Part shown: positions 2,389-42,045 of the stretch, piece after piece
How the letters are laid out: each line of letters opens with the position of its first letter
How positions within the stretch are numbered: the first letter of the stretch is position 1
Assembly: GCF_039555335.1 (NCBI RefSeq)
Contig: NC_092647.1
Span: 17,641,993-17,705,992 of the forward strand
Length of the DNA: 64,000 nucleotides
Origin: Amphiura filiformis
Taxonomy: Eukaryota; Echinodermata; Ophiuroidea; Amphilepidida; Amphiuridae
Direction of reading: 5' to 3'
Position numbers and translations under genes: made by a program
Notes under the pieces: generated by a model
Seen by the model: the letters and a program-made list of their open reading frames with translations, nothing else
The model's database searches: none
What the model was told of the DNA's origin: nothing

Positions 2389-2705
2389 ATGTTTTACAAG
2401 ATTTAAAAAAATCTCTTTATAGCTTATATGAAAACGTATTACTTGGGACACGTGTCATTATCATACCTTTTTTGCAGTTGACACTTTCTTGATATTTCTT
2501 TGAAAAGGGCTAAATTTAAATAATGTAAGATAAGCTGCTCGCATAATTATAGAAAATCAACAAAAAATAATAGGCAATAAAAAATATGTTTTACAAGATT
2601 AAGAAAAATCTCTTTATAGCTTATATGAAAACGTATTACTTCCGGACACGTGTCATTATCATACCTTTTTTGCAGTTGACACTTTCTTGATATTTTTTTG
2701 AAAAG
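2389..2705. repeat. Direct duplication (119 bp, offset 197) covering the end of a TIR exon
   Basis: Sequence 2586-2705 is repeated almost unchanged at 2389-2507, separated by about 78 bp. The 2586-2705 copy contains the last 41 bases of exon 12 (2665-2705), its splice donor and 79 bases of intron. The extra copy lies downstream in the intron (gene on minus strand) and carries a second identical-looking donor, but no acceptor. Confidence 0.85.
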
Positions 2706-2766
2706 CACATCAGAATTGCAGATGCATGTTCAACTCCTTCCGCCATCCTGTCATCCATGTTACCCC
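2665..2766 (-). CDS. TIR domain exon, middle part (exon 12 of the ANK-Roc-COR-Death-TIR gene)
   Basis: 102 bp, phase 1 in and phase 1 out. Acceptor ...TTTCAATATAG before GGGGTAAC; donor AAAAAAG/GTATGA. It reads as the second third of a TIR domain: an RGNMDDRMAEGVEHAS helix, then the buried strand and loop AILMCFSKKYQESVNCK. It continues the first TIR exon (4572-4679) in frame across an intron holding two Penelope fragments. In TIR NADases the catalytic glutamate follows shortly after the motif matching SVNCK; here it would be encoded in the next exon, outside what I can find. The last 41 bases are duplicated downstream (2389-2507). Confidence 0.85.
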
Positions 2767-5700
2767 CTATATTGAAACATATGTTAAATATGTTATATTG
2801 GTATAATCAATAGGAATATCATTAAATATATATCTTTATTTGGGCCAAATTCCTGGTCAGGTTTAGTGCAAATAAAGATTTTAGTCTAAAATAAATGATC
2901 CAAAGACCAAAAAAATTTTCTACCTAGGAATGTTCATATGGATCTCCATCTATCAGCAGCGAGAGTGATACTGTGATGTATATAATTAGATTGTGACCTT
3001 TTTGACCGTAGATTTGATCACATTATCGTAGACTCCTTGAAGTTTGTACCAGCATCCGTCTTTATTTAGAGGTGGCTGGTTAACTTTGATTTGCACTGCT
3101 TCCTTGACGCCTCGATCAAACCATCTCATGTCTCTGTCCAGGATTTTAACATGGTTTAAGCTCACAAATTGCCCAGAAGACTCAATGCGGATGTTGTATG
3201 AAACTTCAGTTTTCGACGAACTAGGCCTTCTGTGTTCCAAAAAGGACATTACTGGTCCTGTATATTGCATCCCTTGCCATAGCTAAACTACGTCCGGTCA
3301 GTGTAAGGAAGCTTAAGGAAGACAACAAGCTCCTTAAAAACGCTGTTTGCGGAACATAGAAGACCACATTCGTCTAAATGTTTCCAACCACATCTACGTT
3401 GAGTCACCTGGACATTTTGTGAACTTAGACCAGGTCCAGATCCTGGACCAGAGACCACGAGGCGTCAACGAGGCAGTTCAGATCAAGTTAACCAGCCATC
3501 TCTAAACAAAGACGGGGGCATATACAAATATCCTGGAATCTACTAGACTGTGACTAAGTCTAAGGTCAAAAAGGTCTCAATCACTTTCGCTGATTAAAGA
3601 TGCAGAGCATCTGAAAATTCAGAGGTAGGAATTTCTTGTGTTTGGATCAAAAGTTTTAAACTTTAATAAAAAATGAACGTTGTCTATAACGGCAACACGG
3701 CATTAATCATTTATCATCAATTATTGTGATTTGAAATCTCAATACATTTTTGAAAATTAAGCATACAACATCAGCATGGGAAGTTTGAATCCGCGTCTTT
3801 ATTTTCTTTCTCCTTCTCCTGCTCCTTGTCCCTACCGTCTCCCGTCAAAAGGTTACTGAACCCCTAATTGTTTTGCTTCTGCAACACGTGCATGAACAGA
3901 GAAGAGTGGAAATTCTTTCTAAGCCACATCTTGGATCCTCTGCTCAAGGCCAACATTGGAGACAGGAATACTTCTGGTAAAAGAGTAACATTCGGCCGGG
4001 ATTCCCGCTCCAAGCAGATGGATCAATAACAACATCAATTGCTTTGAGAAAGCCAGAAGGTTTCTAGCGAAACTGTCAGCAGAAAAACGTAAGTTTATCC
4101 TTTGTTCTTGACAAAGAACTTTAAATAGCTTACATTCTCAGCTTTCGGATGTACTATGCGGTTTCCACCTAGGTATAGGACTTTTTATTTTTTCGGAGAA
4201 GAGCAGGTAGGGCAACTACTTGATTATATGTCTACATGTTCATACTACTGAAAATTTTAGAAAATTCGCACGAGTCCGTTTTTTTAAATCACATTTTTGT
4301 TCCTAAAATGGGTTATAGCGCCCTCAACGGGCACTCTCTCCATAGGGCTACATGTAAAGACCAGTTATAGACAAATGGCCCTAAAATAAAACGGACTCGT
4401 GCGAATTTCCTCAAATTTTGCATATGATGTAGATTTAACATCTGGAATGTAATGCAAGTGATGTCGTTGCTGCTCTCCTAAATTCATTTTTAAAATGTCC
4501 GCCCCAGACCAAGGTGAAATTTCGTCCTAGGATATTTAGTTCCAGAATATGTTTCTTATATTATTACTTACTCATCTCCTCTACGTCCATCCAAATGGAA
4601 AAGCCGTCATGCTCTAATTCATCCTTCAGTCTTTTCATCCTCTCCTGCGAACCCCAGTTGTAGGAGATCATCACATGACCTAGTAAAATAACAAAATGAA
4701 CAAGTGAACGTTATTAGGATATAATACAGAATAGAGTGCTGATGATATGAATGTGTGTACAAAGAGGGTAAAGTATGATATAACAGCATGTCGGAAGTGA
4801 CGAAGTGGTCCGAATTTGAACAAAAATAGATGAGTGAAAGGATAATTGTACAGTGACTACAGGAAAAAGGTATTCTACCAAACATCCTCTCCCTTGTACA
4901 ACTACCAACATCATCTACCTAATCACTTGCAAGAAAAGTGGTAGTCAGTACGTCGGTACGTTATTGTATTGTTGCCTGATAAATGTATCAGTGCCATTTT
5001 AATCCATCCCTTCACTTTATGATTAGAGCTGGCTTCAACATGCTGTATACTGAGAGCTGGTCTCTAATTTTTCCTAGAAAAAGACAAGTTGAATCTTTTC
5101 GAAACGTCCGGTTTTTAACTTTGTTCATCCTTTATTCCACCACTGAATATTATGTCAGACTTGCCATATTGCTACGTTTATCCCTGTGTACGTGTAACAC
5201 AGTTGTATCCAAAAACCTTTGATTCCCTGCTTTTATAGCTTGAAATGTGTTTGAGAAAATATACACTTTCATACTAGTCCGGTATCTACCGGAAGTTAAT
5301 GATAACCCACAGGACTCTGCCAAACCAATTTTTTTAGCTTCCTTTTATGGTCCTATAACACAATCAAGATGTTAACAAAAAATAATTCCCGGCACTCTGG
5401 CCATATTCAAGGTTAAAGGTATGTATATCACCTCAAAAATAAGCGCAGCAGGAAAACGTTATTTAATGTTTCTACATGAATGAGCTTTATTAAAGCATCA
5501 AAAATCAAAAAACGGAATTGAAATCGGTCAATGCATTGTGATGTAGTGTCAATTTTAAGATGCTCGTAAATGGAATTAAAACCTGCCACAAATGGCTATA
5601 ATGACAAAATTGGCACATTTCGAGATTTTGAAGGTTTATTTGGACGCTTTCTTGAAAAAGCAGCGTTAATTTAAGTACCACAGGTTAAATGCCTATCTTT

Positions 5701-8700
5701 CCTAACTTCGTTAAAGAAAACAAAATTAAAAAATCTATCATTGAATAATTATAATAAATTAACCAAATATACTATTTTAGCAAATTCAGCCAATCTGCAG
5801 ACAAATTAAAGGTGAAAAAATGACTAAGTTCAGCTAATTAATTATCCCCTTCGTACATACTGTGTACAATTGTACACATGGACTTCTATTGCTCCCTGTA
5901 TACCAGGAGAAGCTTATTACTGCAAACAAACACCATGTGCACAATTGTGCATTCATATGCTATCCTCCAGTGCAGAGCGCCCTCGCCTAACTGAATGTCA
6001 CTTTTCATAATCTAAGAGGGCATCAACCACTACAGCACGTTGCCAGAAGACATGTACTTTCCCTTTTTAATTTTATATGAAATATCATTGTGGACAAGCT
6101 AAATTCTAGTCAGGGGGTTAGTGTAAGACCTGTAGAAAACATGGGACACTATTTTTGATCAAATGCTTCAAACATATGTGGTGTAGAATTTTTTTTAAAT
6201 GGTGTGTACAATTGTACACAGTGTGTCTCACCTTGTAAATATAAGACTAATATATTGTGTTCAGTTGTACACAGTGTGACTAATCTTATCAATATATAGG
6301 AGTTATTTAGTATACTTTGTACATCATTATAAGTTATTTTTAACTCTTTTGTCAATACTTCCATTCAGTTTATAATTTGCTCTGGATGCATTTTTTGGAA
6401 AAACTACTATGTAGGCCTATTATTACAGGGATAGTTAGGAGTAACTGGTCGTTGATGGGCCCGAAAATGGATCGTGTAGAGTGGAGTAACAAAATTAGTC
6501 GCAGAAATCAAGTTTATTAAGTGTGATGTCTTCTTCGGTCTCTCCAAAGACAAGAACTGTTTATTAGCATTTTATACCAAATTAATGAGAGTTAAGAGCC
6601 TACAGATATGGACGTATGAAGGCAACAGAAAAAAAGAAACAAAGGGTTCAAGTTTGTTGCTTCACATATGTTACCAAGTTTTACTGCCATTACTTAGTCA
6701 TAATGTGTACAATTGTATCCAAAAAATCATTGTAAACATCGTCACTTAGTCACAATGTGTACAATTGTACACATGCCCTAATTTGCATAATTGATGAGGT
6801 AATTTTTTTTTTCAGTTTTTCACAAATTACTATCCAAAATAGTTATAATAAGCATAAAAAATATTTTTTTGATCGAGCCATCTTCCTTCGTGTCCGAAGG
6901 GGTTAATATGCAAAATTGATGCCAATAGAAAACCGTACATGATATCAGGGTGCGGTTTTTTTGCACACATATGTATACAAAGTTATTTCAATTGATAACA
7001 AAAAATACACAAAAAGTAATTAATTATGCAAATTAGCTAATTACAGGTAATTATGTATTCATGGTATTTTTATGTAAATTAGGCATGAGTAATTTTGAGT
7101 TTTTTCAATATTTAATGAAAGTCTATTCATTCACCATAAATATGTCAAGTATGAACCTGTTATGATGTTGAATAAAGAAACTGCAGTTAATTACTTAAAT
7201 ATAATACAAAACATACAAAGTTTGACATTTTGCCGATGTCAGGAATAAAATTTTCATTTTTTTCTGTAAACATGGTATGTGTCACCATTGCTCAAAGCCA
7301 AATCCGAAAAGTAAAAATCATAATCCATTTGCAATGAGACTTTAAATGAACATTTTGTTATCTGGATTAACATGGGATGACAAATGGTAAACGGAAAAGT
7401 CATTCCCACTGTACCGCGTATACAAAAATAGTATGGCCTTGGACACACACAATGGCTTAGAGCTATTGTGGTTTGGAAAATTACTCCCTAGAAATATCTT
7501 TGATATAATGGGTTTTTTTTCCAACCAGTTTTCTCGAAGTCTTTCATTCGTTGTCGACGGAAATAATTTACACGCTAAGACAGATTAGTATTTCAGCTAA
7601 ATGGTGGTAGGTCCCTTTATTTCAATAGGCCTATATTTACTGATTTATGAGCGATCTTCAAAAATCCATAAAAACAGGCAGTAGTTCTTAAACAGACAAT
7701 TTTTAATTTTGGGGACCCGATGGTAGCCTCGGGAAGTCGTCTTCTTCTTCTTCTTCTTCTTCTTCTTCTTCTTCTTCTTCTTCTTCTTCTTCTTCTACCG
7801 CTCGCTTTTCGGCAATATTCAACATGAATTTTCACTTTTATTGGGTGACATCCCCTACCAATGCCGCTGCATGGGAGCGGGAATGGGAGGGGGGATAACT
7901 GGCAGTTGTTTTACGGTAATTCTTTACAGTGTACAATGTCTATCATGATCTTACCTCCCTTTCCTGGGGCATCATTCGTATCGTCATTTCTGCTTCCAGA
8001 TGTATCACGTACAACTTCTAAAGGATACAGAAAACAAATCGATATTTAAGCAAGTTAAGTAGTAACCCTAATCGTAAATTTATATGCTTATAATTGTGTA
8101 AATTGAAACCGAAAATGTCAGTCCAAAGACGACGTTCATATTCATTACTCGCTCCCGGGGTGTCATGTGCGTTATTTTAACCTAGGGTGCGTAATGGAGA
8201 CTCTAATGATAAAAATGTCCTTTTGCGGGAAAAACCAATTTTCTACCCTTTCTGCAACATTCACATCATCATGAAACTGATCACAGCTATCTGTCAATAG
8301 CCCTGGGAACAGTAGGAAGAACCACATCTTGCAGTGTTATTAACATTTAAAAGGAGCTATAAAAAGGCCCTCTGCGCTCCCGTTACTTTTAGAGACTATA
8401 ATTCATGAATAAACCCACAAAGCCCGAATACTAGACGCCGACTCTTCATGGATCGGCAGTGGCATCCAAGAGGCAGGGACGGCAGTAGGTACTACCTACT
8501 AGCAATTTATAATTCAATATTGAGACTCTCACTCTCAATAGTACGTTAACCTCCAAGAGCGCCCCCACTACTTATTGGGGCTGAAAAGGTCAGATGGGTT
8601 TTAAAAAAGCGCTTAAAACTTATTTGTTCCCATAACATGTTCTTATTGATATTGTAATTTGTATTATTTTTAAGATGCACCTTCAAAATGTAGTTTTAAG

Positions 8701-11700
8701 TTGTAGTATTAAGGTATTTTGTAAGCGCTCTGAGCCTTATGGAAATGGCGCAAATGCTCTTTGTATTGTATTGTACTGTATTGTATTGTATTGTATTGTA
8801 TTGGGTTGGTGACAAAAAGTTACCTACAGGTGAGCTAAACTTAACTGTTTCAGAAAGAAGAATCGGTTGGTATTATGATAAACATTACTTCAAGTATCGA
8901 TATAGTGTTGATCATGACTAACGTGAACATAAAGGGTGTCCCAATAAAAATAAGAACCCTTCATTGCGCCCTATTTTTCTTCTATTTCTGAAAAGTTAAT
9001 CAAATATATTTTGGTATGTAAAGAAAACTTTTTTCGTTAGCGTTAACAAACCGAAAGAAATATTTCAATCGGCTTACAACCTGTGAAGATATGCTCTTTT
9101 AAAGAAATGTGCCCGTTTTTCACTCTGTCCACGGAAGAGGTTTCGCTACTTCAAGATTGAAATAGAGTATGCATTCCTCAATGATAACTTTAATAACGAA
9201 CTTTATTAAAGGAATGGGCTTTACCGGTGGGCCTATAGGCTATGGATTGTTGTTAAGTGTCATTAACTTGTCGGCAAAATGGATGTGTTATGGGATAGCA
9301 AGAGAATTAAAATTCTCTTGCTATATTCTTGGTTATGTATCCCTGTTTTGTTTTATTATGTTTCTTACTTTCTTATTTTGTTGTTTCTTGCTTTCTTTTT
9401 ATTTACAACATCCCAGCAAACACAAAACGTTTTAAAAACGTTTTAAATAAGTTATATTTTGGCTTTTGGTTTAAGTAAAAACGTTTTAATAACATTAAAA
9501 TGTCGGGTTATATAAAGGTCATGATAACGTTTTAAAACGTTTTGTATGAAAACACACTACAACAATATTTTTAAATGTTCTCAAAAAATGTTATTGTAAA
9601 CTATTTTTGCAAACATTTTTGCCAAATATTGTGTCAATACTTAAATAACATTATGTTAAAATATTTGAACCCAGCAAACACAGAAATGTTCTAAAATGTT
9701 TTTCAAAACCTTTTAAGAACATTTTAATGTCGGGTTATATAAAGGTCATGAAAACGTTTTTAAAACGTTATTGAAAATATTTTGGGCAAAAGTTTTTCGC
9801 AAAATATTTTTTCAACCCCCAAATAACATTCTGTTTAGAATGTTTTGTATCAAGTTTTCAGGAATGTTTGTGGAATGTTATTAAAACGTTTTTATACCCT
9901 ATCCGACATTTAAACGTTTTCTGTAAAACATTTTGTTTGCTGAGCAGTAGATTATCAAAAAATGTTTTTTAAGGTTATGAAAACGTTTTATACTCTTAAT
10001 ATACCCTTTATACAACCCGACATTTAAACGTTTTCTGACAACTTTTTATCACCTTTTGCGAATGATGTCGAAAACGTTTTGTGTTTGCTGGGATGTCATT
10101 TTCTCCTTTTTGGATAAAGGGTAGCCTGAAAAGGGCTGTTTGGTATGTCCTTGGTTCTTCTGAAGTGAGTTTACTGTGCAGCTTTGCCCTCAACCTGGTT
10201 GCCTCCTTGACGAATACATGTTTCAGCCCTGGTCCTAATTGCATCAATTGCATTGCGTCCTTCCTTGTGCGCCGTATACTTGCGAATGCAGCAGTTATGC
10301 GGTTACGAAGATGTTAGAGGCTAGCTGGTGATCCTCGCTCAGAGTGAACGCGTTCCAAAGCCTAATGCTATTATCTATCCATGTCATTAACCGTGTGTTT
10401 CGTTTTAATCTTTGATGTAGCCAAACCGCATCCGTGGAGTGAAAAACGGGTACATTTCTTAAAGAGGGCACATCTTAAAAAATTGTGAGCCGATTGAAAT
10501 AATTGTTTTGGTTTATTAAAGCCAACGATTTAAAGTTTCTTTACATACCAAATTTTTTAGAAACAGGAGAAAAAGAGAGCGCAATGAGGGTTCAGTTTTA
10601 TTGGGACACCCTGTATCTCTTCAGGTCATATATATAAAATGCTCACAACAATTTGACATGACACGTCACATATGAATTAAACCAATCCAGCGCCAGACCT
10701 GTGATTCAAGTAACCACTTACCCGGTTCAAATGCTTCAATACTAGAACCATCTTCTGAATGCTGTAAAAAGAAAATAATTCGTAAGTTCCATTTAATGGC
10801 GCTGATGGGAAACAACATGGCGGTGCCCAGTCATTTGAACAACTGCAACATTAATTAATGTAATTCAAATACATTTTACATTCTAATATTAATGTAGCAA
10901 GTAATAACATGTACTTTGTAACAGCTGTAGTCTGTCATGTCTCACAATCTGTAAAATATGATCGTATAATATTTAATTTATACCCGTAAATATGAAGCAC
11001 GATAATTTATCAATGACTTTATACGCAATGCAACATAAAAGAGAGCATGCTAAATGCAGTTTACAAATCTACTTCTACGTCAACTATATCGATTGATTTT
11101 CTTGCCCAGTTATTCCCTGTACTTGGGACTGGTGGGTGAAAAAGACATACGACAGAGATGTAAGCCATGAAAAAACTCATGTGAAAAGCATGAAAATGCT
11201 CGAAAAAGAACCAAACCAAAACAAACCCAGGATATTTCCCGAAAACTTACATCTTTGGTACAAAGATAAAAACCACCAGCCCCCTGCTGCCCAGTTCTAC
11301 TTAAACGTGAATTGGTTATCTGCACCAACAACATCTTGACGCTTAAACTCGGGACGTGTGTATCTATCAGCGTGTTTAAAGTGGGAGCAGATGTACGGTA
11401 CATTGGCGTGTAAATTCTATCCAGTCAGAAATTGTCCGGTAACTTGCTCACTATAAACACAAGACGCAGAGGAGGCTTAAAGGCATTTATACAATGCACT
11501 ATGATTGGGAAATTTGATCAATATAACCTAATTTTAAACCCATTGCCACACACACAAAATGGTAATTTTAAAACTGCAGCCAACGAGCTAATAGTTGAGA
11601 CTTAGGAATGATATTTGATTTTCTTACAGGAAACATTCATATTATCCCACTGCATTAATTTTATTCATAAGTCTCGATGTTTTGAATGTTAAATAATAGG

Positions 11701-30949: not shown

Positions 30950-31044
<95 letters not shown>

Positions 31045-34000: not shown

Positions 34001-37000
34001 GAAAGAGTTGGAAATTCAATTAGAACTGAGGAAAATGGAAATGGACCAAAAAGAAAAACTGGAAATGATCAAGTTAGAGAATGAAAATAAAGAAAAACAA
34101 GAACGGCTAGACATTGAAAAACAAAAACTAGCAATGGAAGAAAAAGCACGCTAAGAAAAGATGGCGCTTGAGCACCACAAATTAGAAATGGAAGAAAAGG
34201 AAAAACTAGCAAAAATTCAAATGGAAGCACATTTGAAAGAAAAAGAAATTGAGTTTGAACAAGAGAAGTTGGCTAAGCTAGGTGACAAATACTCATCAAG
34301 TTTCTCCTCAAAGTCAAAGTCAGGCTTTGATGTTACAAAGTATGTAAAGCTTGTGCCTAAATTCAAAGAGAAAGAAGTTGACGAGTACTTTCAACATTTT
34401 GAAAAGGTAGCTACAAATTTGAAATGGCCTCCAGAGCATTGGACCCTACTGTTACAAAGTAGTTTTGTGGGGAAGGCCAGGAGACTTACTCAGCTCTACC
34501 AATAGAGAAGTGTAATAATTATGAAGAAGTCAAACAGGCAGTCCTTAAGGCCTATGAACTGGTGCCTGAAGCATACAGACAAAAGTTCAGAGATTCAAGA
34601 AAGCAAGCAGATCAAACCCATGTAGAATTTGCTAGAGTAAAAGAACAAATGTTTGACAGATGGCTTGGGTCAAAAGAAGTCAAAGATGATTTCGGCCAAC
34701 TAAAGCAATTAGTTCTTATAGAAGAGTTCAAGAAATGTGTCCACGTTGACATAAAAACTCATTTGGATGAAAGCGCTAGCAAAATTAAGACGCTAAATGA
34801 AGCGGCGACAATGGCGGACGACTATGGCTTAACTCACAAATTGAATGGGAGTAAATTTAGTCATAACAGAAGTTATTCAAACAGGTTCAGCCATAACCAA
34901 CCTAGAGCAAATCAGGGTGGTACACAAGAAGGGAGATCTCAGTCTAATTCACAGCATAGTGCTGGTGGTAGAGGGACCCCAGGGAGTTCAGGTAACAGAG
35001 CAAAATTTGGGACTGAATTTAAAGCCAAAGTAACTTGTACTCATTGTAAGAGACCAGGGCATACGATGACCCAGTGTTATTTCTTAAAAGACAGACAAGA
35101 CGCACAAAAACAGCAGCAAACTGCTAGTAATACTGTGGGATGTGCAGTGTCGCTTGAGTCAAAGGAAAAAGTCAGTCAAATCAAGAAACAAGAATTCCCA
35201 CAAAAGGGAGGTGAGACCGACAAGGTGTGTGAAGAATTTGAACCATTTGTGTTAGAGGGAGTGGTATCACTTGGTGAGAATGGTAGTCCAAAGCCCATCA
35301 AGATTGTGCGAGATACGTGTTGTGCACGGTCTATGATTCTGGAAGGGACTTTACCCTTTAATGAGGATAGTTCAGCAGGTAATGCTTTGATCCAGGGTAT
35401 TGGGATGGAAATAATTAGTGTACCTCTCCACAAAATTAACTTGACATCTGACTTAGTTTCTGGTCATGTAACCATAGGAGTTAGACATGAATTGCCAGTC
35501 AAGGGAGTGTCCATGTTGCTAGGAAATGATCTGGCAGGGGGGAAGGTTTTTCCTGACCCAATAGTCACAGATAAGCCCTGTATACAGGCTGATAATAGTG
35601 AGGAAGAGGAGATATTTCCTGCATGTGCAGTGACACGGGCAATGAGTAAGAAGGCCTCATTAGAAACAATTGAGGACAACCAAATTGATGACTTAGGCTA
35701 CAATTTGGAAGACACATTTGTGTCAAAGTTGAATGAGAAAGAAGATAAACTTCCTTCTCCTGGGGATAAAAATACCCCTAAAAGTGACACAGCCTCTGAG
35801 CATGAACAAATTGGGGAAACCATGAAAGACCCATTAAGTCATGACAAGCTGATTCTTGAGCAACAAAATGACCCAGAACTCAAAGAGATCAATCAAAGGG
35901 CATTGACCCTAGAAGAAGCAGAACAAAATTCTGTCTGTTTTTACAAACAAGATGGTGTGCTAATGAGAAAATGGCGCCCCTGATTTACCTGCCGATGAAG
36001 AGAGGAAGGTAGTGCACCAAATTGTGGTACCAAAAGTCTACCACACTGAAGTTATTAACATAGCGCATGATAGTCCCATGGCAGGGCATTTGGGTGTTAA
36101 GAAAACTCATGAAAGAATTCTGAGACATTTCTGGTGGCCCACTCTCAGAAAAGATGTTTCTGAATATTGCAAAACATGTCACATATGCCAAGTAGTAGGG
36201 AAGCCAAATCAGAAAATACCTCCTGCTCCATTAAAGCCAATTCCAGCCTTTGATGAACCATTTAGTAGGGTTATTATTGATCGTGTAGGCTTCCTACCAA
36301 AGACTAAGTCAGGTAATCAATACCTTCTGACAATTATGTGCGCGTCAACACGCTTTCCTGAAGCCATACCCTTGAGAAATATTAAAGCAGTGACTATAGT
36401 GAAAGCTTTAACCAAGTTCTTCACATTTGTGGGGCTCCCCAAGTCCATACAGTCAGACCAAGGATCAAACTTTACTTCTGGAGTATTTCAGCAGGTCATG
36501 TATCAATTAGGTATAGAACAGTATACCTCAAGTGCTTACCATCCAGAATCACAAGGTGCACTAGAAAGGTTCCACCAAACATTGAAAAACATGATCAGAA
36601 CATACTGTTTGGAATTTCAGAGGGACTGGGATGAGGGAGTACACTTGTTGTTGTTTGCTGCTAGGGAAGCTGTTCAGGAAACTTTAGGATTTAGTCCTTT
36701 TGAGTTAGTGTTTGGACACACAGTGCGCGGGCCCTTAAAGTTGTTGAAAGAAAAGTGGCTCAATGAGAAATCAGATATCAATTTATTGGACTATGTCTCC
36801 AATTTTAAGCATAGGCTTAACAGAGCAACTGATATCGCCAAGGAAAACTTGAAACAGGGTCAGGCCAAAATGAAACAATGGTACGATAAACATGCCAAAG
36901 AGAGAGTGTTCAAACCAGGTGACAAAGTTCTAGTACTGTTTCCAATTCCAGGACACCCATTGCAAGCCAGATATCATGGCCCATGTGAAGTAGAGTCAAA

Positions 37001-40000
37001 AGTGGGTGAAGTAGATTATATTATCAAGACTCCTGGTAGACGCAAGAGCAGGCAGCTATGCCACATAAATATGCTCAAAGAGTATGTTGAAAGAAGTGAC
37101 AGTGGCATTCCAAAACCTGTGTGTACAGTAAAACATGCTGATAATGTAGACAAACATGCCGATGTAGACAAAATCGCCAATGTAGACAAGAGTAAAGATG
37201 ACAATTCTGATGTCACATTTGACCAGGATAAAGAGCTGGAGCACAAAGAGTATAATGTAAAATTGAACAATTCTGATGTGCTCACTAATTTGGACTCAAA
37301 GTTAGGTCATCTTTCTCAAGATCAACAAAGTCAAATTGCAAATTTGATTCACAAATTTGACAATATATTTCCTGATACGCCAAGTAGAACAAATGCTGCA
37401 TTTCATGATGTAGATGTTGGTGATACAAAACCAATCAAGCAGCATCCTTACAGAGTCAATCCATTGAAAATGGAACATCTCAAAAATGAGATTAATTATA
37501 TGCTAGACAATGATATCATAGAACCAAGTAGTAGTGAGTGGAGTTCACCATGTATTCTTGTTCCCAAGCCTGATGGTTCATACCGATTGGTCGCAGACAT
37601 GAGAGCTGCAAATGTTCATTCAAAGACAGACTCGTACCCAATTCCAAGAATTGATGATTGCATAGACAAAATTGGGAATGCAAAATTTGTTAGCAAATTT
37701 GATCTTTTGAAAGGGTACTGGCAGGTTCCACTCACAGACCGTGCCAAAGAGATTTCTGCTTTTTGTACACCATTTGGTCTTTACCAATACAAAGTTATGC
37801 CATTCGGGTTGAAAAACGCCCCAGCAACATTTCAGAGAATGGTGAACCAAATTGTGGCAGACATAGAGGGATGTGAAGCATATGTAGATGATTTGATTGT
37901 TTACAGTCAAACTTGGGAACAACACATGGAACAACTCCATCAATTGTTTAAGAAGCTGTCTGAAGTACAGTTGACAGTCAATCTGGTAAAAAGTGAGTTT
38001 TGCCATGCCACAGTCACATACTTGGGATATGTTGTAGGTCAAGGTCAGGTGAAACCTATCAAAGCCAAAGTTGAAGCAATTGAGCAATACCCACACCTGT
38101 AAACAAGAAGGCACTCATGAGATTTCTAGGAATGGTTGGCTATTATAGAAAGTTCTGCCCAAACTTTTCAGAGATAGCAAGTCCTTTGACTGATTTGTTG
38201 AAGAAAGATGCAAAATTCATTTGGTCAGAACAGTGTGAAAATGCTTTTCACAAAGTCAAATCGATACTCATGAGTTCACCAGTGCTTACTGCACCTGATT
38301 TTCAGAAGCAGTTCAAGTTGACTGTTGATGCCAGTGACATAGGCTGTGGAGGTGTTGTGATGCAAGAGGGTGAAGATCAAATAGATCACCCCATTTGTTA
38401 CTTTTCAAGGAAGTTCAACAAGCACCAGAGAAATTACTCCACAATTGAGAAGGAGTGTCTAGCATTGCTATTAGCATTGCTACATTTTGATGTGTATTTG
38501 GGTACCACAGTATACCCTGTGCTTGTTTTCACAGATCACAATCCCTCACCTTCATCAACAGGATGAAGAACAAAAACCAAAGACTGGTGAGGTGGAGTTT
38601 GACCTTGCAAGAGTACAATCTGGACATCAAAAATAATAAGGGAAAAGACAAGGTAATGGCTGATGCCCTGTCCAGAATTGCATAAAAACTGACAAAAAAA
38701 CATTTCCTTTTAAAGGGAAGTTGTGTGTGACAAGTAGTCACTGTGTATGATGAGTTAAATACTCAAAGTTAATAATATGTTGAAGTTGAAAAAAAAAAAA
38801 AAAAACACTTAAGAAAGTTTTCATTACATTCGAACTTTCTTCTTTTAAGGGGAGGTGTGATGTGCCCTGAGTAATTTAATTTAATTTGATTATTTAACTT
38901 TGTTTACAAGCTGAAAGTATTTCATGAGATGGGAAACCCCTTGTACGTGCAAGACAATGGTGTGGAAAGTCATTTTGGTATTCCCCCAAATTATTGTAAA
39001 CAAAGTCAGAGCTATGTTTGGAACTTGGAAAGCCCCAGTTCATTATTGCACCGTCAGGAAAACCCCCCAGGAAGTGATGTAATGTGAAAGGTGAATGTGT
39101 ATAATTAATCTTGGGAAATCCCAAGATTGCAGCAATGTTGTGAAAATGTGATTGAAGTAATGGTTTTATTTATAGATGATGGGTTTTTTGCATGAGTACT
39201 GATATAAAAAGCTGGAGGTTTTTGTTGGGACTTTACAGAATGCCATGGGAGATTGAAAACTCCACATGTGTGTGATGGTCTTCGTGCTTCAAAAAAGAAG
39301 TACATTTTAACCAGTTTATATAGCCAATAATTGAGCTAATTTTAATACAGCAACGAAGAAGACAGCGAGCACACAAAAGTGCTCTTCCTCATCAAAGGAT
39401 TAAAAGTTCTTCTGTCAAATTGCTGGAGTTTGCTGGGTTTGTGAAGGCCACGCATCTGTCAAGAAACAGTGGAGCTGTGTTAAAGAAACCGGTTCCCTGG
39501 AAAAAGAGTGATTGGTGAAAGAAACACCATTTTTGGAGAAAGCAGCGCAAGGAGATATATTTTTGGAGAAAGCAGCGCAAGGAGATATATTTGTGGAGAT
39601 AGCAGCGCAAAGGAGATTGGAGGAAGCATCATCATTTTCGTATGAGGATTTTATACGCAAGGATTTATAAATGCAAGTGTACTATGGACTTCGCTGATTT
39701 TCGCAGGACAAGTGAATAAGGATATATTACATCAGTCGTCCAGAACATTGCAAGAACTCTAGGATCACCAACAAGAAGACAGCTGGTTAAGTAGTCATAG
39801 AGTAAAACTGTCATTGTGTGATTTTATTGTATATGCGATATTGTTATTATATGTACCAATCATACTCTGTTTTCAATTAAAGACTTAGATTTTGTTAGCT
39901 TAAATAAACAGTGTATTTGTGTTGTGCATTCGTGTGAGTTTGGGTAAAAGGTGATTTTGGCCTTGAGTCAAGAGCAACTCGTAACAGGACACAAATTACT

Positions 40001-41107
40001 CAGAAACCAGAAGGTCGGTAAACATTTAAAATGAAGCACACATGACAGTTGACAAATCCAAGTATTTATCCCCTACTAATCTTCTTTGAATCTGATTTTT
40101 CTTTCAAATGAGCAGACCGTCGTCTATTTCAGTACATATTTTTCACCAATTAAGCCGTATTCAGTTTTGCATGGTGGGCATGTATGTGAATTCGCAACTT
40201 TCATCGACATATGATTTGATAGCAAACATACAGGCCTTTGTTATGTACCAATATGGGCATTGGCATGAATGGCGGTGTTTCACAATACTGCCATGATGTC
40301 AAATTGTATTCGTAGGTAACATTCGGTTACCGAAATTTACCTACGAATACTTGCTTTTATTGTTGACATCTCAGAAATATTTAAACGCAGGCTATTGAAA
40401 CTTGGTAGAAATAAAGAGTGTATTACCCTGCACCTATTGCTTAACTATTGTTTACTATTCTCTCACTTTGTGGAAATGGCACAGCTTTTAACATGTATTC
40501 GGAGGTAATGCATATTTTTTACCAAACCTACCTTTGTGCCATTTAGAATTTCTGGCAGCTAAACACAATAATAAAGATGTTCGAATGCAATGCATTTCAG
40601 TATTGGACATATCAAAGCTTGTATCAATTGCGCATTTATTAGTGATTTCCATTTTTTAAAGATATATATAGTGCTATGTGCTATGTAAAAAATTCATAAT
40701 TATGTACAAATATGTGAAAAATTGAACAGGCAATCTTTGAATACACACCTTTCAGGAAATCAATTTAGATTCAATCCAATGACTTCTTTTCATAACTGAT
40801 TTATATGTTTTTAAAAATACTTTAAGAAATATTTTGAAAAAATGGGTAAAAAAAGCATGTTTTGGGGTCTCTGTGTCTAAGTTTTTCACAGAAGGGGTCT
40901 TATTATATATGGCGCGAAGCGTATATGATCAAGGCGAATAAACACAATACAAAAACGAATGCCAATTGATTAATACTTTTAAGGTATGGCCATGAACATG
41001 CCGTGTACACTTTTCGTTGGATTCGACCATATGTATATGTATATGTATATGGTATATATGTATGTGAACAAACCGTATTTATTTTATGGGTATTTAATCC
41101 ACAGATG

Positions 41108-41152
<45 letters not shown>

Positions 41153-42045
41153 GGGCAAGGACTACAACTACTGTACTGAAAATTCAGCAACTCAAAGCAA
41201 GTAGTTATTGATTTATTGATCAAATATTGGTTTTCCCTCATTTTTGACTGTAACTCCACAAATGTTGTCTATGCTGAAATAAAATTTCCAGTGCAGTAGT
41301 TGTAGTTCTTGCCCCTATAATATACATATCTAATTACTTGTCCCCAATGCGCTATAATTTTGAGAAAAATGCAAAAATACGCACAAAATTGGGCAGGGGT
41401 GTAATACCCCCTTAATTACTCTGTGCTAGAAATCTTAATTTGGGCACCTATTAACCATGAATAACCAATATTCTTGGATCATTTTTGACAACCTTTACAG
41501 ACGTATCATTTTACCTTATACTGTTTCTGTACTTTGCTCTTTTGAAGTCCAGTAAGCAAGTCAAATGGTAGTTGGCCCAACTAAATTAAAAAAAAACCAC
41601 CAAAACATGCGGAATAACATTGTAATACGTAATGAAACCTTGATGAGATTCAAAATATCATATATGACAATCAGATCCGCATGACAATTAAAATGGAATA
41701 TGTATATATTAATATGTGATAGAAACCGTGTTGTTTATAATAGCTTGACTGAAATGACTAGAAAATATATGTATAATGCCGACATTTGTGATATACAACA
41801 CTATAGTAGTATAGTGATAAAGTCATATCGTCTATATAGATATAGTAGTATAATGATAAAGTCATATCGTCTAGATATCGTACGATTTTATATTTTTAAA
41901 TGTATAATAATAGTAAATAGAGTCTAACCTTGTCTTTTAATGTTGGATCCGCGCCACGCCGGATCAACATTAGTATGATATTGTAGTATTTCACATCATC
42001 ATTGTTGCCGTATGTACTACACGAATAGTGAAGTGGAGTCCATCC
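2665..42045 (-). CDS. ANK-Roc-COR-Death-TIR multidomain gene, 12 exons seen, both ends incomplete
   Basis: Gene-level entry; exons are listed separately. Twelve minus-strand exons total 2371 bp of coding sequence inside 39.4 kb. All have AG acceptors and GT donors, and each exon's end phase fits the next exon's start phase (0,0,0,0,1,0,0,0,1,1,1,1). Domain order is ankyrin repeat, Roc GTPase, COR, Death, TIR. ROCO proteins (LRRK, DAPK1 and MFHAS1 families) are GTPases whose COR domain dimerises; Death domains recruit death-fold partners; TIR domains are either adaptors or NAD-cleaving enzymes. A role in intracellular defence or cell-death signalling is inferred from the domains only. The kinase of LRRK or DAPK1 is not seen here. 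The 3' end leaves the window inside the TIR domain. Upstream exons (more ankyrin repeats, start codon) were not found up to 64000. Introns carry most of the mobile DNA of the window. Confidence 0.88.
2986..3285 (-). mobile_element. Penelope-like element remnant, GIY-YIG endonuclease tail
   Basis: Minus-strand open frame whose protein has the signature of the Penelope C-terminal endonuclease region: EHRRPSS, VKILDRDMRWFDRGVKEAV, NQPPLNKDG, LQGVYDN. Only the last 80 or so residues are present; the RT domain and the GIY-YIG core are missing, so it is a truncated inactive copy. It lies in the intron between the two TIR exons. A second diverged copy starts about 50 bases away in the opposite orientation, with their 5' truncation points facing each other. 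Confidence 0.8.
3335..3600 (+). mobile_element. Second Penelope-like endonuclease tail, opposite strand, decayed
   Basis: Plus strand, in shifting frames, shows AEHRRPHSSK, then HIYVESPGHFVNLDQVQIL, RGVNEAVQIK, NQPSLNKDGG and KSKVKKVSI. This is the same endonuclease tail as the minus-strand fragment at 2986-3285, with frameshifts and stops. The two form an inverted head-to-head pair around 3290-3330. Confidence 0.72.
3892..4092 (+). pseudogene. Possible TIR-like remnant, opposite strand to the host gene
   Basis: A plus-strand ATG frame reads MNREEWKFFLSHILDPLLKA, then FGRDSRSKQMDQ and a stop. After a frame change it continues NINCFEKARRFLAKLSAEK. The spacing (EEW, FGRD, then an R-R-F-L-x-x-L-S helix/strand) resembles the first half of a TLR-type TIR domain with a frameshift. 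It is a weak family call from pattern alone; a chance reading or a fragment of another family is possible. It lies in the intron between TIR exons but is on the opposite strand and of a different TIR subtype. Confidence 0.3.
4259..4412. mobile_element. 154-bp MITE with 23-bp inverted ends
   Basis: Ends AATTCGCACGAGTCCGTTTT (left) and AAAACGGACTCGTGCGAATT (right) are perfect inverted repeats around a 110-bp centre that includes GGGTTATAGCGCCCTCAACG. No open frame. Confidence 0.8.
4572..4679 (-). CDS. TIR domain exon, first part (exon 11)
   Basis: 108 bp, phase 1 to phase 1. Acceptor TTATTTTACTAG/GTCATG; donor GATGA/GTAAGT. Encodes the start of a TIR domain: strand A as HVMISYNWGSQE, the amphipathic helix RMKRLKDELEHDGF, then strand B SIWMDVEEM. 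The ISYxWxSQ opening and WMDVE motif are typical of the TIR_2-like type found in many invertebrate and bacterial TIR proteins, rather than the Toll-receptor type. It follows directly on the glycine-rich linker exon at 7955-8017. Confidence 0.88.
4680..5845. other. Intronic sequence, nothing recognised
   Basis: Part of the intron between exons 10 and 11. Short open frames here (for example 4983-5222) have no family resemblance or splice context. Confidence 0.4.
5846..6902. mobile_element. TTAA-flanked non-autonomous DNA element carrying repeated palindromes
   Basis: Inverted ends CCCCTTCGTACATAC (left) and TGTCCGAAGGGG (right), flanked by TTAT and TTAA, as expected of a TTAA-targeting (piggyBac-like) element with one mutated flank. 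Inside are three exact copies of the 18-bp palindrome TGTGTACAATTGTACACA (5861, 6203, 6756) and diverged versions near 5936, 6258 and 6699. No transposase frame. Confidence 0.55.
6903..7740. other. Intronic sequence, nothing recognised
   Basis: AT-rich; no exon with matching phase and no repeat arm recognised. Confidence 0.35.
7741..7796. repeat. (CTT)n microsatellite
   Basis: Uninterrupted CTT triplets over about 56 bp. The long arginine run seen in one minus-strand frame is a by-product. Confidence 0.98.
7955..8017 (-). CDS. Linker exon between Death and TIR domains (exon 10)
   Basis: 63 bp, phase 1 to phase 1. Acceptor ATCCTTTAG/AAGTTG; donor GGGAG/GTAAGA. Encodes a polar flexible segment (VVRDTSGSRNDDTNDAPGKG). 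Recognised because its phase fits both neighbours and its splice sites are strong. A linker of this kind is expected between the Death domain and the TIR domain. No motif of its own. Confidence 0.75.
8018..8559. other. Intronic sequence, nothing firm
   Basis: No coding signal recognised. Sequence near 8440-8520 may belong to the LINE 3' end that follows. Confidence 0.35.
8560..8805 (+). mobile_element. 3' end of an L2/CR1-type LINE with pentanucleotide tail
   Basis: A short frame resembling a LINE C-terminus (FKKALKTYLFP) is followed by an AGCGCTCTGAGCC...GGCGCAAATGC segment, typical of LINE 3' UTRs of this group. It ends in (TTGTA)n at about 8758-8803. Heavily 5'-truncated. Family call from general pattern only. 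Confidence 0.5.
8932..10613. mobile_element. Mariner-type element with 200-bp inverted arms, interrupted by another element
   Basis: Left end AAGGGTGTCCCAATAAAA and right end TTTTATTGGGACACCCTG, flanked by TA on both sides (8930-8931, 10614-10615). The arms match over about 200 bp (8932-9150 against 10395-10613) at perhaps 80 percent. CAGGGTGTCCC ends with TA duplication are typical of mariner-like elements. The centre holds a CCCAGCAAACAC-family element (9412-10092) and unassigned sequence; no DDE transposase frame was seen. Confidence 0.75.
9412..10092 (-). mobile_element. CCCAGCAAACAC family, copy 2 (inverted relative to copies 1 and 3)
   Basis: Bounded by CCCAGCAAACACAAAACG and the inverted form CGTTTTGTGTTTGCTGGG, 681 bp. 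Same internal modules as copy 1 but in reverse order. The flanks ACAT and ATGT extend the inverted repeat by four bases. Inserted inside the mariner-type hairpin, so it is younger than that element. Confidence 0.85.
10722..10761 (-). CDS. 40-bp microexon after the Death domain (exon 9)
   Basis: Acceptor TTCTTTTTACAG/CATTCAG; donor GAACCGG/GTAAGT. Phase 0 in, phase 1 out, encoding HSEDGSSIEAFEP. Too short to be found by open-frame search; it is supported by strong splice sites and by joining exon 8 to exon 10 in frame. Exon 8 could alternatively end at its own in-frame TGA three bases into the putative intron, in which case exons 9 to 12 would be an alternative or separate transcript. Confidence 0.7.
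10762..12048. other. Intronic sequence, nothing recognised
   Basis: No repeat arms or exon-like segments recognised. Short frames at 11110-11403 look like chance. Confidence 0.35.
12057..13107. mobile_element. hAT-like non-autonomous hairpin element
   Basis: Ends TAGGGTGTGGCGAAA and TTTCGCCACACCCTA, with an exact 8-bp target duplication ATATACAG (12049-12056 and 13108-13115). The arms are inverted copies over about 390 bp each, around a loop near 12445-12720. An 8-bp duplication with short TAGGG-type ends is the hAT pattern. No transposase. Lies in the intron between exons 8 and 9. Confidence 0.82.
13411..13912. mobile_element. AGGCTT/GGTCGGTCG MITE, copy 1
   Basis: Inverted ends AGGCTTAAAAAAATAAGC...TGACTTACCC and GGGTAAGTCA...TATTTTTTAAGCCT, with inner CGACCGACC blocks near both ends. 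About 500 bp, with no coding content. A diverged second copy is at 43161-43604 and loose GGTCGGTCG fragments are near 23370 and 29215. Confidence 0.75.
13958..15073 (-). CDS. COR and Death domain exon (exon 8)
   Basis: 1116 bp, 372 codons, phase 0 at both ends. Acceptor TATCATTAAG/GTATAC; putative donor GCAAAG/GTATGA. The N-terminal part continues the Roc-COR junction (VILNTNWFMTNIIGAAFAG, then YYTLEELRAFFMKK and ILDLMGLVHE), the winged-helix part of COR. A middle region follows (LYPSVQKKIL, YARGSVTVLVRLT, IAAKCPDKD). The last 90 residues form a Death domain (CFRIMDGDYRAVGKALRI, DNIIKRWCKKN, GMLQKLLSR). An in-frame TGA lies just past the donor, so a transcript that does not splice here would end after Death. 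The frame is fully open, so it is under coding constraint or very young. Confidence 0.9.
15074..15616. other. Intronic sequence left of the LINE
   Basis: Part of the intron between exons 7 and 8; nothing recognised. Confidence 0.4.
15627..16953 (+). mobile_element. 5'-truncated RTE-like LINE (reverse transcriptase part)
   Basis: Flanked by an exact 10-bp duplication GAATACCCTT (15617-15626 and 16954-16963). The coding part starts inside the RT (KKGEKTDIKNYRPISLL), continues with EQAGFRSGYST, YEKAFDSVEH and GVRQGDTISPK, and after one frameshift near 16077 shows the catalytic LRFADDVALV box. It ends with a C-terminal WAGHLARREDNRWTKRLTEW segment. Endonuclease and 5' end are missing. The 3' end is a short GGTGA repeat rather than poly(A), as in RTE-clade elements. 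Inserted antisense in the intron between exons 7 and 8. Confidence 0.9.
17133..17312 (-). CDS. Roc-COR junction exon (exon 7)
   Basis: 180 bp, 60 codons, phase 0 to 0. Acceptor TTCAACACTTAG/GGAACC; donor GGCGAG/GTAAGT. Encodes KKLPKVCDKMEKIIKPWREE, then VPVISWQEYSDRVRKKYPGM and LRTVTSYLHLMGE. In ROCO proteins this segment is the end of Roc leading into the first COR helices; the YLHLMGE motif followed by V-x-L-N in the next exon is characteristic. It joins exon 8 in frame as MGE-VYLAEFD. Confidence 0.88.
17453..17613 (-). CDS. Roc GTPase exon, C-terminal half (exon 6)
   Basis: 161 bp, phase 1 in, phase 0 out. Acceptor TTTTATATTAG/GAGAGA; donor ATTGTG/GTAAGA. Encodes EKAAEFLLRQSKKMFDGLLD, then IEDSVIVVDARDERCKGVET and a KKVLKERRECIV helix. 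The VIVVDARD strand is the expected core strand after the G4 motif of the Roc fold. Confidence 0.82.
17788..19635. mobile_element. Outer hairpin-type element with a second element nested in it
   Basis: Left arm from TGGCGCTATGGG (about 17788) and right arm ending CCTATAGTGCCA (about 19635) are inverted copies over about 150 bp; both carry CCTACxxTAGTGG, AATGTTT...GGCATCCTTA and a TTTTTTTCTATGCCC block. The element at 18501-19451 lies between the arms, close to the right arm. It occupies the intron between exons 5 and 6. Boundaries are approximate and no clear target duplication was read. Confidence 0.6.
18501..19451. mobile_element. Inner TA-flanked MITE
   Basis: Ends CCTAAGTGGAAGAATGGCCC and GGGCTCTTCTTTCACTTAGG, inverted over more than 30 bp, flanked by TA on both sides. 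Further GGCCCAACTCC blocks occur inside near 18660-18710 and 19260-19275 in both orientations, giving extra internal hairpins. 951 bp, no coding content. Confidence 0.75.
19763..19874 (-). CDS. Roc GTPase exon with G4-like motif (exon 5)
   Basis: 112 bp, phase 0 in, phase 1 out. Acceptor CATGTTAG/TCAACC; donor CCAGAAG/GTATCC. Encodes STTEYWLPFLKAARKSEDKT, then QVVLVGSHLDRIHNKPE. VVLVGSHLD sits where the guanine-specificity motif (usually TKxD-like, here SHLD, as in several Roc proteins) is expected. In frame with exons 4 and 6. Confidence 0.85.
20099..20814. mobile_element. ACGGTGGTCA element, first of two tandem copies
   Basis: Begins ACGGTGGTCATCAGTTC and ends TGACCACCGTT in inverted sense, about 716 bp. 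It shares long blocks in the same order with the next copy (20827-21735), including AAATCAGCACAATTCAGAGA and ATTCGATCGTTTGTATTGCC. No coding frame recognised. Confidence 0.7.
20827..21735. mobile_element. ACGGTGGTCA element, second tandem copy
   Basis: Begins ACGATGGTCACCAGTTC, twelve bases after the first copy ends, and finishes TTGACCACCGTT. About 190 bp longer than the first copy through extra sequence in the middle. Both copies point the same way, so this is a tandem duplication or a double insertion. Confidence 0.7.
21736..22675. other. Intronic sequence, nothing recognised
   Basis: Between the tandem elements and exon 4. No repeats or exons recognised. Confidence 0.35.
22676..22876 (-). 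CDS. Roc GTPase exon with switch I/II region (exon 4)
   Basis: 201 bp, 67 codons, phase 0 to 0. Acceptor TTGTAACTCACAG/GAAGAG; donor GACCAG/GTATGT. Encodes a T-P-G-I-N-V segment (the switch I threonine context), then FLIWDLAGQVEYAITHGMFL with the D-x-A-G-Q G3 motif, then CLFVVVYDLVEL. In Roc domains DxxGQ contacts magnesium and the gamma phosphate. The glutamine that supports hydrolysis in Ras-like GTPases is present. Confidence 0.9.
22877..25801. other. Large intron part, no gene or clear repeat family
   Basis: About 2.9 kb. A possible decayed fragment of the GGTCGGTCG MITE family lies at 23330-23400, and a short TATCCG run at about 23220. Otherwise nothing recognised. Confidence 0.35.
25802..26075 (+). 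repeat. Polypurine (GA-rich) tract
   Basis: About 270 bases of plus strand are strongly purine-biased (runs of GAGAGAGG, GGGAGGA, AGAAGGGAAAAG), broken by short AT-rich pieces. Such tracts can form triplex or non-B structures. No coding content. Confidence 0.8.
26076..27985. other. Intronic sequence, nothing recognised
   Basis: Only short A-runs (about 26742-26760) and dispersed TAGGCCTA octamers. No exon fits the phase here. Confidence 0.35.
27986..28036 (-). CDS. 51-bp Roc exon (exon 3)
   Basis: Acceptor TTTCAATACAAACAG/CAACTT; donor GCACAG/GTATGT. 17 codons, phase 0 to 0, encoding QLSWLSKLRKGPRGKAQ. It falls between the P-loop exon and the switch exon, where Roc proteins have a variable basic loop before switch I. 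An ATG frame on top of it is in a different frame and is not used in this model. Confidence 0.7.
28569..28900. repeat. Low-complexity G-run, C-run and CCGCCCCTTCTTC repeats
   Basis: A run of about 18 G at 28570 is followed by T-rich sequence and imperfect repeats of TTTTTGCCGCCCCTTCTTC at about 28760-28850, then CCCCGGGGGG and a C-run. Very GC-rich and pyrimidine-biased for this window. It could be the degenerate end of a mobile element; no coding content. Confidence 0.7.
29264..29299. repeat. (AT)n microsatellite
   Basis: Uninterrupted AT dinucleotides directly next to the 3' end of the SINE at 29300-29515; probably derived from the SINE tail. Confidence 0.95.
29300..29515 (-). mobile_element. 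tRNA-derived SINE with conserved central domain
   Basis: On the minus strand the element starts with a tRNA-like head: box A-like TTAGTGTAGTGG and a good box B GGTTCAATTCC about 40 bases later. Next comes a central block containing TTCTCCGGGTGCTCCGGTTT, a segment known from widely shared SINE central domains in animals. The tail ends near 29300 and is followed by (AT)n. About 215 bp. SINEs of this type are copied by partner LINEs; the tail gives no clear partner. Confidence 0.82.
29577..29795. mobile_element. AAAGGAGTATTT MITE family, diverged copy
   Basis: Begins AAAGGAGTATTTTGTGATTC and ends ATGAAATGCCCTT. It shares GTTCAGTTGATTCCGATTTT and AATTAATCTG blocks with the better copy at 53165-53459. 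Flanking TTAA is not preserved here. Confidence 0.6.
29796..30667. other. Intronic sequence, nothing recognised
   Basis: AT-rich part of the intron between exons 2 and 3. Confidence 0.35.
30668..30787 (-). CDS. Roc GTPase P-loop exon (exon 2)
   Basis: 120 bp, 40 codons, phase 0 to 0. Acceptor TACTATAACAG/GAGTTG; donor ACTAAG/GTTAGA. Encodes a helix ELTLHRKLMAQGSRPVSVIK, then the first strand and Walker A loop VIICGNPAAGKSTIKDTL. GNPAAGKST fits the GxxxxGK[ST] P-loop with all binding residues present, so nucleotide binding is expected. It follows the ankyrin exon in phase across an 11-kb intron that holds the Gmr1-like element. Confidence 0.92.
30948..31046. repeat. (AAAT)n microsatellite
   Basis: About 100 bp of AAAT/ATAA tetranucleotides with a slightly different end (TTAATTAATTAA). 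Confidence 0.97.
32003..32530. repeat. GTATTCGTAGGTAAC motifs in the left part of the TTAA element
   Basis: GTATTCGTAGGTAAC occurs at 32003-32017 and 32482-32496; the second is followed by the inverted form GTTACCTTCGAATA at about 32516-32530. The same unit recurs on the other side of the LTR element (40306-40350, 40495-40540). Confidence 0.75.
32543..33671 (+). repeat. 5' LTR of the Gmr1-like element
   Basis: 1129 bp, TG...CA ends. A TATA-like ATATAAAAAGC lies near 32889 and an AATAAA near 33587, so promoter and polyadenylation signals can be placed. Three tandem copies of a ~31-bp unit (TTTTGGAGAAAGCAGCGCAA core) lie at about 33212-33300. Confidence 0.95.
33676..33696 (+). promoter_or_regulatory. 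Primer binding site, tRNA-Pro type with a 3-base insertion
   Basis: Four bases after the LTR comes TGGGGGCTCGTC, complementary to the 3' end of tRNA-Pro, then GTCCGGGA. The usual tRNA-Pro site reads TGGGGGCTCGTCCGGGA, so GTC appears duplicated in the middle. The first 12 bases could still pair. Confidence 0.8.
33754..35983 (+). pseudogene. gag and protease region of the Gmr1-like element, frame-broken
   Basis: Starts at an ATG (33754) with a conserved N-terminal domain (FLETINWEKFDELKKPDLLA), breaks near 33960, and continues as a charged coiled coil with a stop at 34152. A capsid part follows (34161-34505, break near 34480, 34562 onward) with the pattern EAYRQKFRDSRKQADQTHVE and IEEFKKCV, the region related to vertebrate SCAN domains. 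A C-x2-C-x4-H-x4-C zinc knuckle (CTHCKRPGHTMTQC) follows. The protease active site reads RDTCCARSMI, with C where the DTG/DSG glycine is expected, so it is probably inactive. It ends at 35983 in a stop next to a C-run; the integrase frame starts immediately after in another frame. Confidence 0.9.
35984..38685 (+). pseudogene. pol region: integrase, reverse transcriptase, RNase H, frame-broken
   Basis: Open 36012-38102 in one frame. Integrase comes first: the zinc-binding H-H-C-C part (HLGVKKTHERIL, CKTCHICQ), then a core with D (VIIDRVGF), D (SIQSDQGSNF) and E (ESQGALERFHQ), and a C-terminal GDKVLVLFP...RKSRQLCHINMLKEY module. A linker with repeated VDK units leads into the RT: VPKPDGSYRLVADMRAAN, FDLLKGYWQVPL, MPFGLKNAPATFQRM and the catalytic YVDDLIVY. 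The frame changes near 38100; RNase H follows (TVDASDIGCGGVV, IEKECLALLLAL, FTDHNP), changes frame again near 38540 and ends at 38685 (ADALSRIA). All catalytic acids of integrase and RT are present. Confidence 0.93.
38847..38855 (+). promoter_or_regulatory. Polypurine tract (plus-strand primer)
   Basis: AAGGGGAGG ends exactly where the 3' LTR begins, the usual position of the plus-strand primer of LTR elements. Confidence 0.88.
38856..39986 (+). repeat. 3' LTR of the Gmr1-like element
   Basis: 1131 bp. It differs from the 5' LTR by A for G and T for C substitutions and by run-length changes in two C-runs and two T-runs. The three-unit ~31-bp tandem repeat is conserved at about 39529-39616. 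Confidence 0.95.
40306..40540. repeat. GTATTCGTAGGTAAC hairpin motifs, right part of the TTAA element
   Basis: GTATTCGTAGGTAAC at 40306-40320 pairs with TTTACCTACGAATAC at 40336-40350 over a 15-base loop. A diverged pair starts at 40495. Same motif as at 32003 and 32482 on the other side of the LTR insertion. Confidence 0.75.
41028..41150. repeat. (GTATAT)n microsatellite in two blocks
   Basis: Two GTATAT arrays at about 41028-41062 and 41105-41150, inside the right arm of the TTAA element. The YTYTYT and MYMYMY frames are by-products. Confidence 0.95.
41412..41928. other. Intronic sequence next to the ankyrin exon
   Basis: Between the right end of the TTAA element and the ankyrin exon. A short direct repeat (about 35 bp, AGTAGTATAGTGATAAAGTC type) lies at 41805-41880; nothing else seen. 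Confidence 0.4.
41929..42045 (-). CDS. Ankyrin repeat exon (exon 1 of those seen)
   Basis: 117 bp, 39 codons, phase 0 to 0. Acceptor TTTATTGATGCAG/GGATGG; donor GACAAG/GTTAGA. Encodes GWTPLHYSCSTYG, a variable NNDDVKYYN insert, then ILMLIRRGADPTLKDK. The GWTPLH opening and the GADPTLKD end are the two most conserved parts of an ankyrin repeat. Ankyrin repeats are protein-interaction modules; upstream of Roc they would act as the sensor or partner-binding part. Further repeats must lie upstream but were not found. Joining to exon 2 is in phase, though other exons could lie between. Confidence 0.85.

Follow-up and report, generated by a model that had tools for sequence, protein, structure and literature searches.

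A predicted ROCO protein with ankyrin, Death and TIR regions in the brittle star Amphiura filiformis

Does one brittle-star gene join a ROCO GTPase to ankyrin, Death and TIR domains in a single protein? The question arises from a 64,000-nucleotide stretch of Amphiura filiformis DNA (assembly GCF_039555335.1, NC_092647.1, positions 17,641,993 to 17,705,992; hereafter the window, numbered from its first letter), for which an earlier note, made from the letters alone, had proposed a minus-strand gene of this kind. We consider it probable that 42045-2665 on the minus strand is most of one A. filiformis gene for a ROCO protein with the order ankyrin-Roc-COR-Death-TIR, working by the switch-type mechanism proposed below.

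Exon chain and predicted domains

Thirteen minus-strand exons, each with AG before it and GT after it, join in compatible phases to 812 amino acids without a stop. Ten of them were read directly and give a stop-free 752 amino acids, paralogues served to predict two short ones, and one was taken from P0001, a public A. filiformis gene model named 'death-associated protein kinase dapk-1-like'. P0001 matches eight of the 13 exons with zero mismatches inside them, the first of the eight (22876-22676) being covered only from an internal Met; the locus is therefore already annotated. A shuffle test covered the 12 short exons and left out the long COR-Death exon. With P0001 set aside, 11 of the 12 outscored 100 shuffles in comparison with one or more relatives (10 proteins compared). 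The mismatch-free exons in P0001 and this test speak against a chain assembled by chance. The twelve phase-compatible exons and about 790 residues of the earlier note fit our set minus exon 8017-7955 (791 amino acids by subtraction), and its motifs GNPAAGKST, DLAGQ and GSHLD are present in the rebuilt exons.

The Pfam scan was done on the 752-amino-acid, ten-exon version. Roc (1.4e-13) and Ank (6.7e-5) exceed their cut-offs, and the P-loop, switch and G4 motifs of Roc can all be read in the sequence. COR lies directly behind Roc, and Death behind Roc-COR; COR-A (24.4 bits) and Death (19.1 bits) are under their cut-offs of 35.3 and 22.6, and both are backed by fold comparison and by relatives. 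TIR_2 was matched at 3.2e-13, with 56.6 bits versus a cut-off of 28, over profile positions 1-69 of 122. The order ankyrin-Roc-COR-Death-TIR in one predicted chain is likely. The earlier note had claimed the same content and order, which stand, with COR and Death carried by fold and falling short of the Pfam thresholds. Neither NACHT nor NB-ARC is among the 13 Pfam families matched by the 752-amino-acid protein at E up to 1. Protein kinase and SH3 were found neither in the Pfam scan of this protein nor in that of P0011, a longer paralogue; no search aimed at kinase exons was made in 42046-64000. PADLOC matches were to ankyrin-type entries, to Csx3 and to bacterial TIR or SEFIR, and were not informative.

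From the N-terminal side, exon 42045-41929 encodes the last ankyrin repeat (GWTPLHY...GADPTLKDK), sharing 18 of 39 residues with P0011, and an in-frame ATG (MQGWTPLHY) stands at 42051-42049, directly ahead of its acceptor. The two predicted exons were proposed where P0011, P0004 and P0003 carry extra residues. One of them, 41580-41515 (LGQLPFDLLTGLQKSKVQKQYK), would be a tail beyond the last ankyrin repeat; it is the top candidate, with a score of 40 and the next unrelated one at 24, among phase-0 AG..GT candidates of 36-120 nucleotides in 30800-41925. The P-loop exon follows at 30787-30668 (GNPAAGKST; 24-26 of 40 residues are shared with P0003, P0004 and P0011). The other predicted exon, 28036-27986 (QLSWLSKLRKGPRGKAQ), is tentative. 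It would span Roc from the P-loop to switch I and leads by a narrow margin (26 versus 22), and the reading frame is the same with or without it. The next exons are all in P0001: switch I/II at 22876-22676 (MTPGI, DLAGQ), the G4 motif at 19874-19763 (GSHLD), the end of Roc at 17613-17453, the start of COR at 17312-17133, and the remaining COR with Death at 15073-13958. This last exon, of 372 codons, aligns over its full length with P0002-P0005 at 46-58% identity with an unbroken frame. LINE-like (long interspersed element-like) reverse transcriptase pieces lie on the plus strand at 15588-16939, in the intron ahead of it.

From Death to TIR

Behind Death come a small exon at 10761-10722 (HSEDGSSIEAFEP plus G), which is in P0001 and scores above shuffles versus P0002, P0005 and P0008, the linker exon 8017-7955 (EVVRDTSGSRNDDTNDAPGKGG) taken from P0001, and two TIR exons, TIR1 at 4679-4572 (HVMISYNWGSQ...MDVEEM; also in P0001) and TIR2 at 2766-2665 (RGNMDDRMAEG...ESVNCKK). 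In the A. filiformis protein P0016 (COR-A 1e-21, TIR_2 6e-17) the TIR domain runs uninterrupted through DVDEMRGNMDDRMAE. Splicing 4679-4572 to 2766-2665 yields DVEEMRGNMDDRMAE, the counterpart of this unbroken stretch, and 24 of the 34 TIR2 residues are identical to P0016. P0009 has no TIR2 segment and reads on with EAEYAYKRN, the last TIR part. Since P0016 is continuous there and P0009 skips TIR2, TIR1, TIR2 and TIR3 look like separate exons. TIR3, the last TIR exon, was not found in 1-2664 by local alignment to open stretches compared with shuffles. The Glu that opens TIR3 in P0016, P0019, P0024 and P0009 stands opposite the Glu of SARM1 WVHKE in a profile alignment, a residue which we take to be catalytic. 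The last base of TIR2 in the window is G, the first base of the next codon; this is compatible with Glu without demonstrating it. As a separate observation, 2388-2507 is a partial tandem duplicate of 2585-2705 (96-98% in two pieces) that repeats the final 41 bases of TIR2 together with the donor and intron sequence behind them.

The path of P0001 runs from within Roc through COR and Death to 10761-10722, 8017-7955 and 4679-4572. The earlier note had joined TIR to Death and had set against this the case of transcripts that always stop after Death; P0001 runs counter to that case by continuing from the Death exon into 10761 and then TIR1. P0009 and P0005 agree, since the Death-TIR order is repeated in both, with Death at 0.0016 and under the cut-off in P0009, and with a Death region given by alignment, free of a Pfam Death match, in P0005. 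The linker exon, the CARD-like parts in most relatives and the fact that the window holds only part of TIR had gone unmentioned in the note.

Several observations weigh against one gene reaching from ankyrin to TIR. The window holds no secure start and no stop for the gene, and only half of TIR lies inside it. P0001 is without the P-loop exon, ankyrin and TIR2 and gives no backing for these three. Exon 41580-41515 beats shuffles versus P0004 only, and exon 28036-27986 versus none of the 10 proteins. The linker exon weakly resembles the linker ahead of TIR in P0005 and P0009, with scores of 43 and 38 versus shuffle maxima of 40 and 36, which are small margins.

Two further observations on the same side concern how transcripts end. 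P0001 reads through into the intron after TIR1 and stops at MSK with about one third of TIR, and no TIR match was obtained in six named relatives (P0002, P0003, P0004, P0008, P0011 and the 245-amino-acid fragment P0015). The working protein might then be Roc-COR-Death and terminate shortly behind the Death exon, either at the TGA stop at 13954-13952 if the 13958 donor is left unspliced or at the MSK stop after TIR1, and a complete TIR would rarely or never be made. We regard this as unlikely: TIR1 and TIR2 are in frame, their joint match to the TIR of P0016, which is contiguous, spans the splice junction, their combined TIR_2 score is twice the cut-off, and P0009 continues into the last TIR part.

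The distance from Death to TIR1 also tells against a single gene, as it amounts to 9.3 kb with two small exons between, and A. filiformis also has this TIR subtype in other architectures (with NACHT and LRR, with COR but without Death, with diacylglycerol kinase, and with armadillo). A neighbouring gene of their own for the TIR exons is nevertheless very improbable, because P0001 joins Death and TIR1 via the linker exon, P0009 and P0005 repeat the order, and TIR1 accepts phase 1, as supplied by the preceding exon.

Paralogues, probable CARD loss and a possible switch

The single gene that we favour belongs to a multigene family. Two protein searches recovered at least nine named A. filiformis models (P0001-P0005, P0008, P0009, P0011 and P0015), plus five unnamed 'ena' entries. 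The family may be larger, because each search scored only the 8000 candidates with most words in common. Their public names are 'dapk-1-like', 'death-associated protein kinase 1-like' and 'uncharacterized'. The Roc-COR-Death core is common to them as far as each model extends. Pfam gives no Death match at E up to 0.1 in P0002 and P0005, so that their Death region rests on the alignment, which is gapped there. P0011 (1368 amino acids) is the long form, with an ankyrin array, Roc, COR, Death and CARD. Ankyrin can be assessed only in P0011 (Pfam) and weakly in P0004 (alignment), because the majority of the other models begin within Roc or behind it.

The ends of these proteins differ. A TIR part is present in three of the nine named models, each time under the Pfam cut-off: P0001 and P0005 have TIR1 only, and P0009 skips TIR2. 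A CARD-like match was obtained in seven of the nine, exceeding the CARD_2 cut-off in P0005, P0008 and P0009, staying under it in P0003, P0004 and P0011, and reaching only E 0.049 in P0002; the fragment P0015 has none. In P0008 both Death and CARD occur as two stretches, and P0009 has the order Death, CARD, TIR, CARD. The models thus end in Death-CARD, Death-CARD-Death-CARD, Death-CARD-TIR, Death-CARD-TIR-CARD or, in the window, Death-TIR. Outside the family, P0016, P0017, P0018, P0022 and P0024 of A. filiformis share the TIR subtype in varied architectures, which points to wide TIR shuffling in the genome; its partners include COR without a Death match, NACHT with LRR, the armadillo repeat, and diacylglycerol kinase with a weak COR, the last possibly a fused gene model.

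CARD and further ankyrin repeats were sought, like TIR3, by best local alignments to open stretches of at least 10 codons, with two-base-block shuffles for comparison. Between Death and TIR (4680-13950), five CARD queries did not stand out from shuffles (8 to 45 of 60 were as good), and in 42046-64000 two ankyrin queries did not either (6 and 12 of 25 as good). Three positive controls (Death, TIR2 and ankyrin) beat every shuffle. A broken CARD or very short pieces could escape, because the test requires an open stretch. The simplest reading is that the window copy lost its CARD, since exon 10761-10722 resembles the paralogue segment that leads into CARD.

These negative searches beside working controls, a young retrotransposon in an intron and the partial TIR2 duplication also speak against an intact gene. 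They would suit a pseudogene in progress, that is, a decaying copy of an ankyrin-Roc-COR-Death-CARD-TIR gene which has lost CARD and most ankyrin repeats. We think this improbable, since each of the 13 exons is open and bounded by GT/AG, the COR-Death exon is unbroken versus P0002-P0005, and the public record lists a protein.

Repeats and other open frames were also recorded in the window. The retrotransposon, a long terminal repeat (LTR) element, occupies 32543-39610 on the plus strand, in the intron between 41515 and 30787. Its end repeats, at about 32.5 and 38.9 kb, are 95-100% identical in matched pieces. In its pol frame, integrase lies ahead of reverse transcriptase, presumably the order of Gmr1-like elements, and a SCAN-like match lies upstream. 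Minus-strand open frames at 2989-3282, without a Pfam match, and at 59869-60057 carry the RGVKEAVQIKVNQPPLNKDG / RGVKGSIYIRTSKSDLNNDQG motif type, which we take to be that of the ends of Penelope-like elements. A 228-codon open frame at 46038-46721, also on the minus strand, has no Pfam match at E 0.001.

How might a protein of the order ankyrin-Roc-COR-Death-TIR work? The nucleotide state of ROCO proteins affects their assembly, according to the parts of PMC3995007 and PMC6337361 consulted. By analogy, the nucleotide bound to Roc-COR would set the assembly state of the window protein, which is probably cytosolic, and binding of a ligand or partner to the ankyrin end would alter that state. 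Clustered Death domains could then nucleate or join a death-domain assembly. The TIR domains brought together would give a second output, the recruitment of an adaptor or other TIR proteins; alternatively, they may act as a SARM1-like nicotinamide adenine dinucleotide (NAD+) hydrolase, provided that the exon beyond the window has the usual glutamate. A role in innate immune or cell-death signalling is likely. More tentatively, the ankyrin-headed ROCO receptors of the brittle star may do the job of NLRs, with the GTPase replacing the NACHT switch and the output end being exchanged among Death, CARD and TIR. At this locus, one echinoderm chain would combine TIR with a GTP switch and a domain for death-fold docking, and paralogues in the same genome keep different output domains. 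This makes it possible to test the idea that death-fold and TIR signalling is gated by ROCO GTPases, an idea which has been studied mostly in human LRRK2, DAPK1 and MFHAS1.

Comparison with known ROCO and TIR systems

ROCO proteins have been sorted into three groups, including a DAPK1 group with Roc-COR and a C-terminal Death domain (PMC6337361, in the part consulted), and an ankyrin-Roc-COR-Death protein that carries TIR or CARD but no kinase and no LRR fits none of the three as described there. The DAPK1 group shares Roc-COR and Death with the brittle-star family, whereas the latter adds TIR or CARD after Death and its long form P0011 is without kinase. DAPK1 has ankyrin before Roc and a calmodulin-dependent kinase at its N-terminus. 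An orthologue of DAPK1, as the public name implies, was rejected because P0011 has no kinase match.

Death is followed by TIR in MyD88 of groups 23 and 32 (PMC7075850, in the part consulted). The predicted window protein is alike in having TIR after Death. MyD88 is not known to have a GTPase or ankyrin. For the sea urchin, only about six TIR combinations were counted in the section seen of PMC2575513. The portions consulted of this paper, PMC8195603 and PMC11797021 contain no closer relative, and the passages seen of the main text of the A. filiformis genome paper (PMC11310086) have no mention of TIR, ROCO, death-associated or NLR.

The earlier note had left novelty undecided, and the answer is divided. 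In sea anemones, Novel Gene 3 was described in 2016 as one protein with kinase, SH3, central Roc/COR, Death, and TIR or TIR_2 (PMC5094078, in the part consulted). It resembles the predicted window protein in carrying Roc/COR, Death and TIR in one chain; compared by description, it differs in having protein kinase and SH3, and ankyrin is not described for it in that part. At least 17 ROCO genes are reported for Trichoplax, CARD and Death being among their parts and TIR standing in the figure key (PMC4104024, in the portion seen); this set also combines Roc-COR with Death and CARD and differs by TPR, LRR, AAA and Ras-like parts, the likeness being one of content. ROC-COR-TIR proteins were reported in Aplysia, with Death in the figure key (PMC9334734); they share Roc-COR and TIR with the window protein and add LRR, MBT, EF-hand or neuralized, and ankyrin is unmentioned in the passage concerned. 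The class of Roc/COR with Death and TIR is thus already known (PMC5094078, PMC4104024, PMC9334734), whereas no paper on this brittle-star ROCO family was found among the open-access papers searched. What is new is the kinase-less, ankyrin-headed form, here in a brittle star, together with the variety of Death, CARD and TIR ends that its paralogues show.
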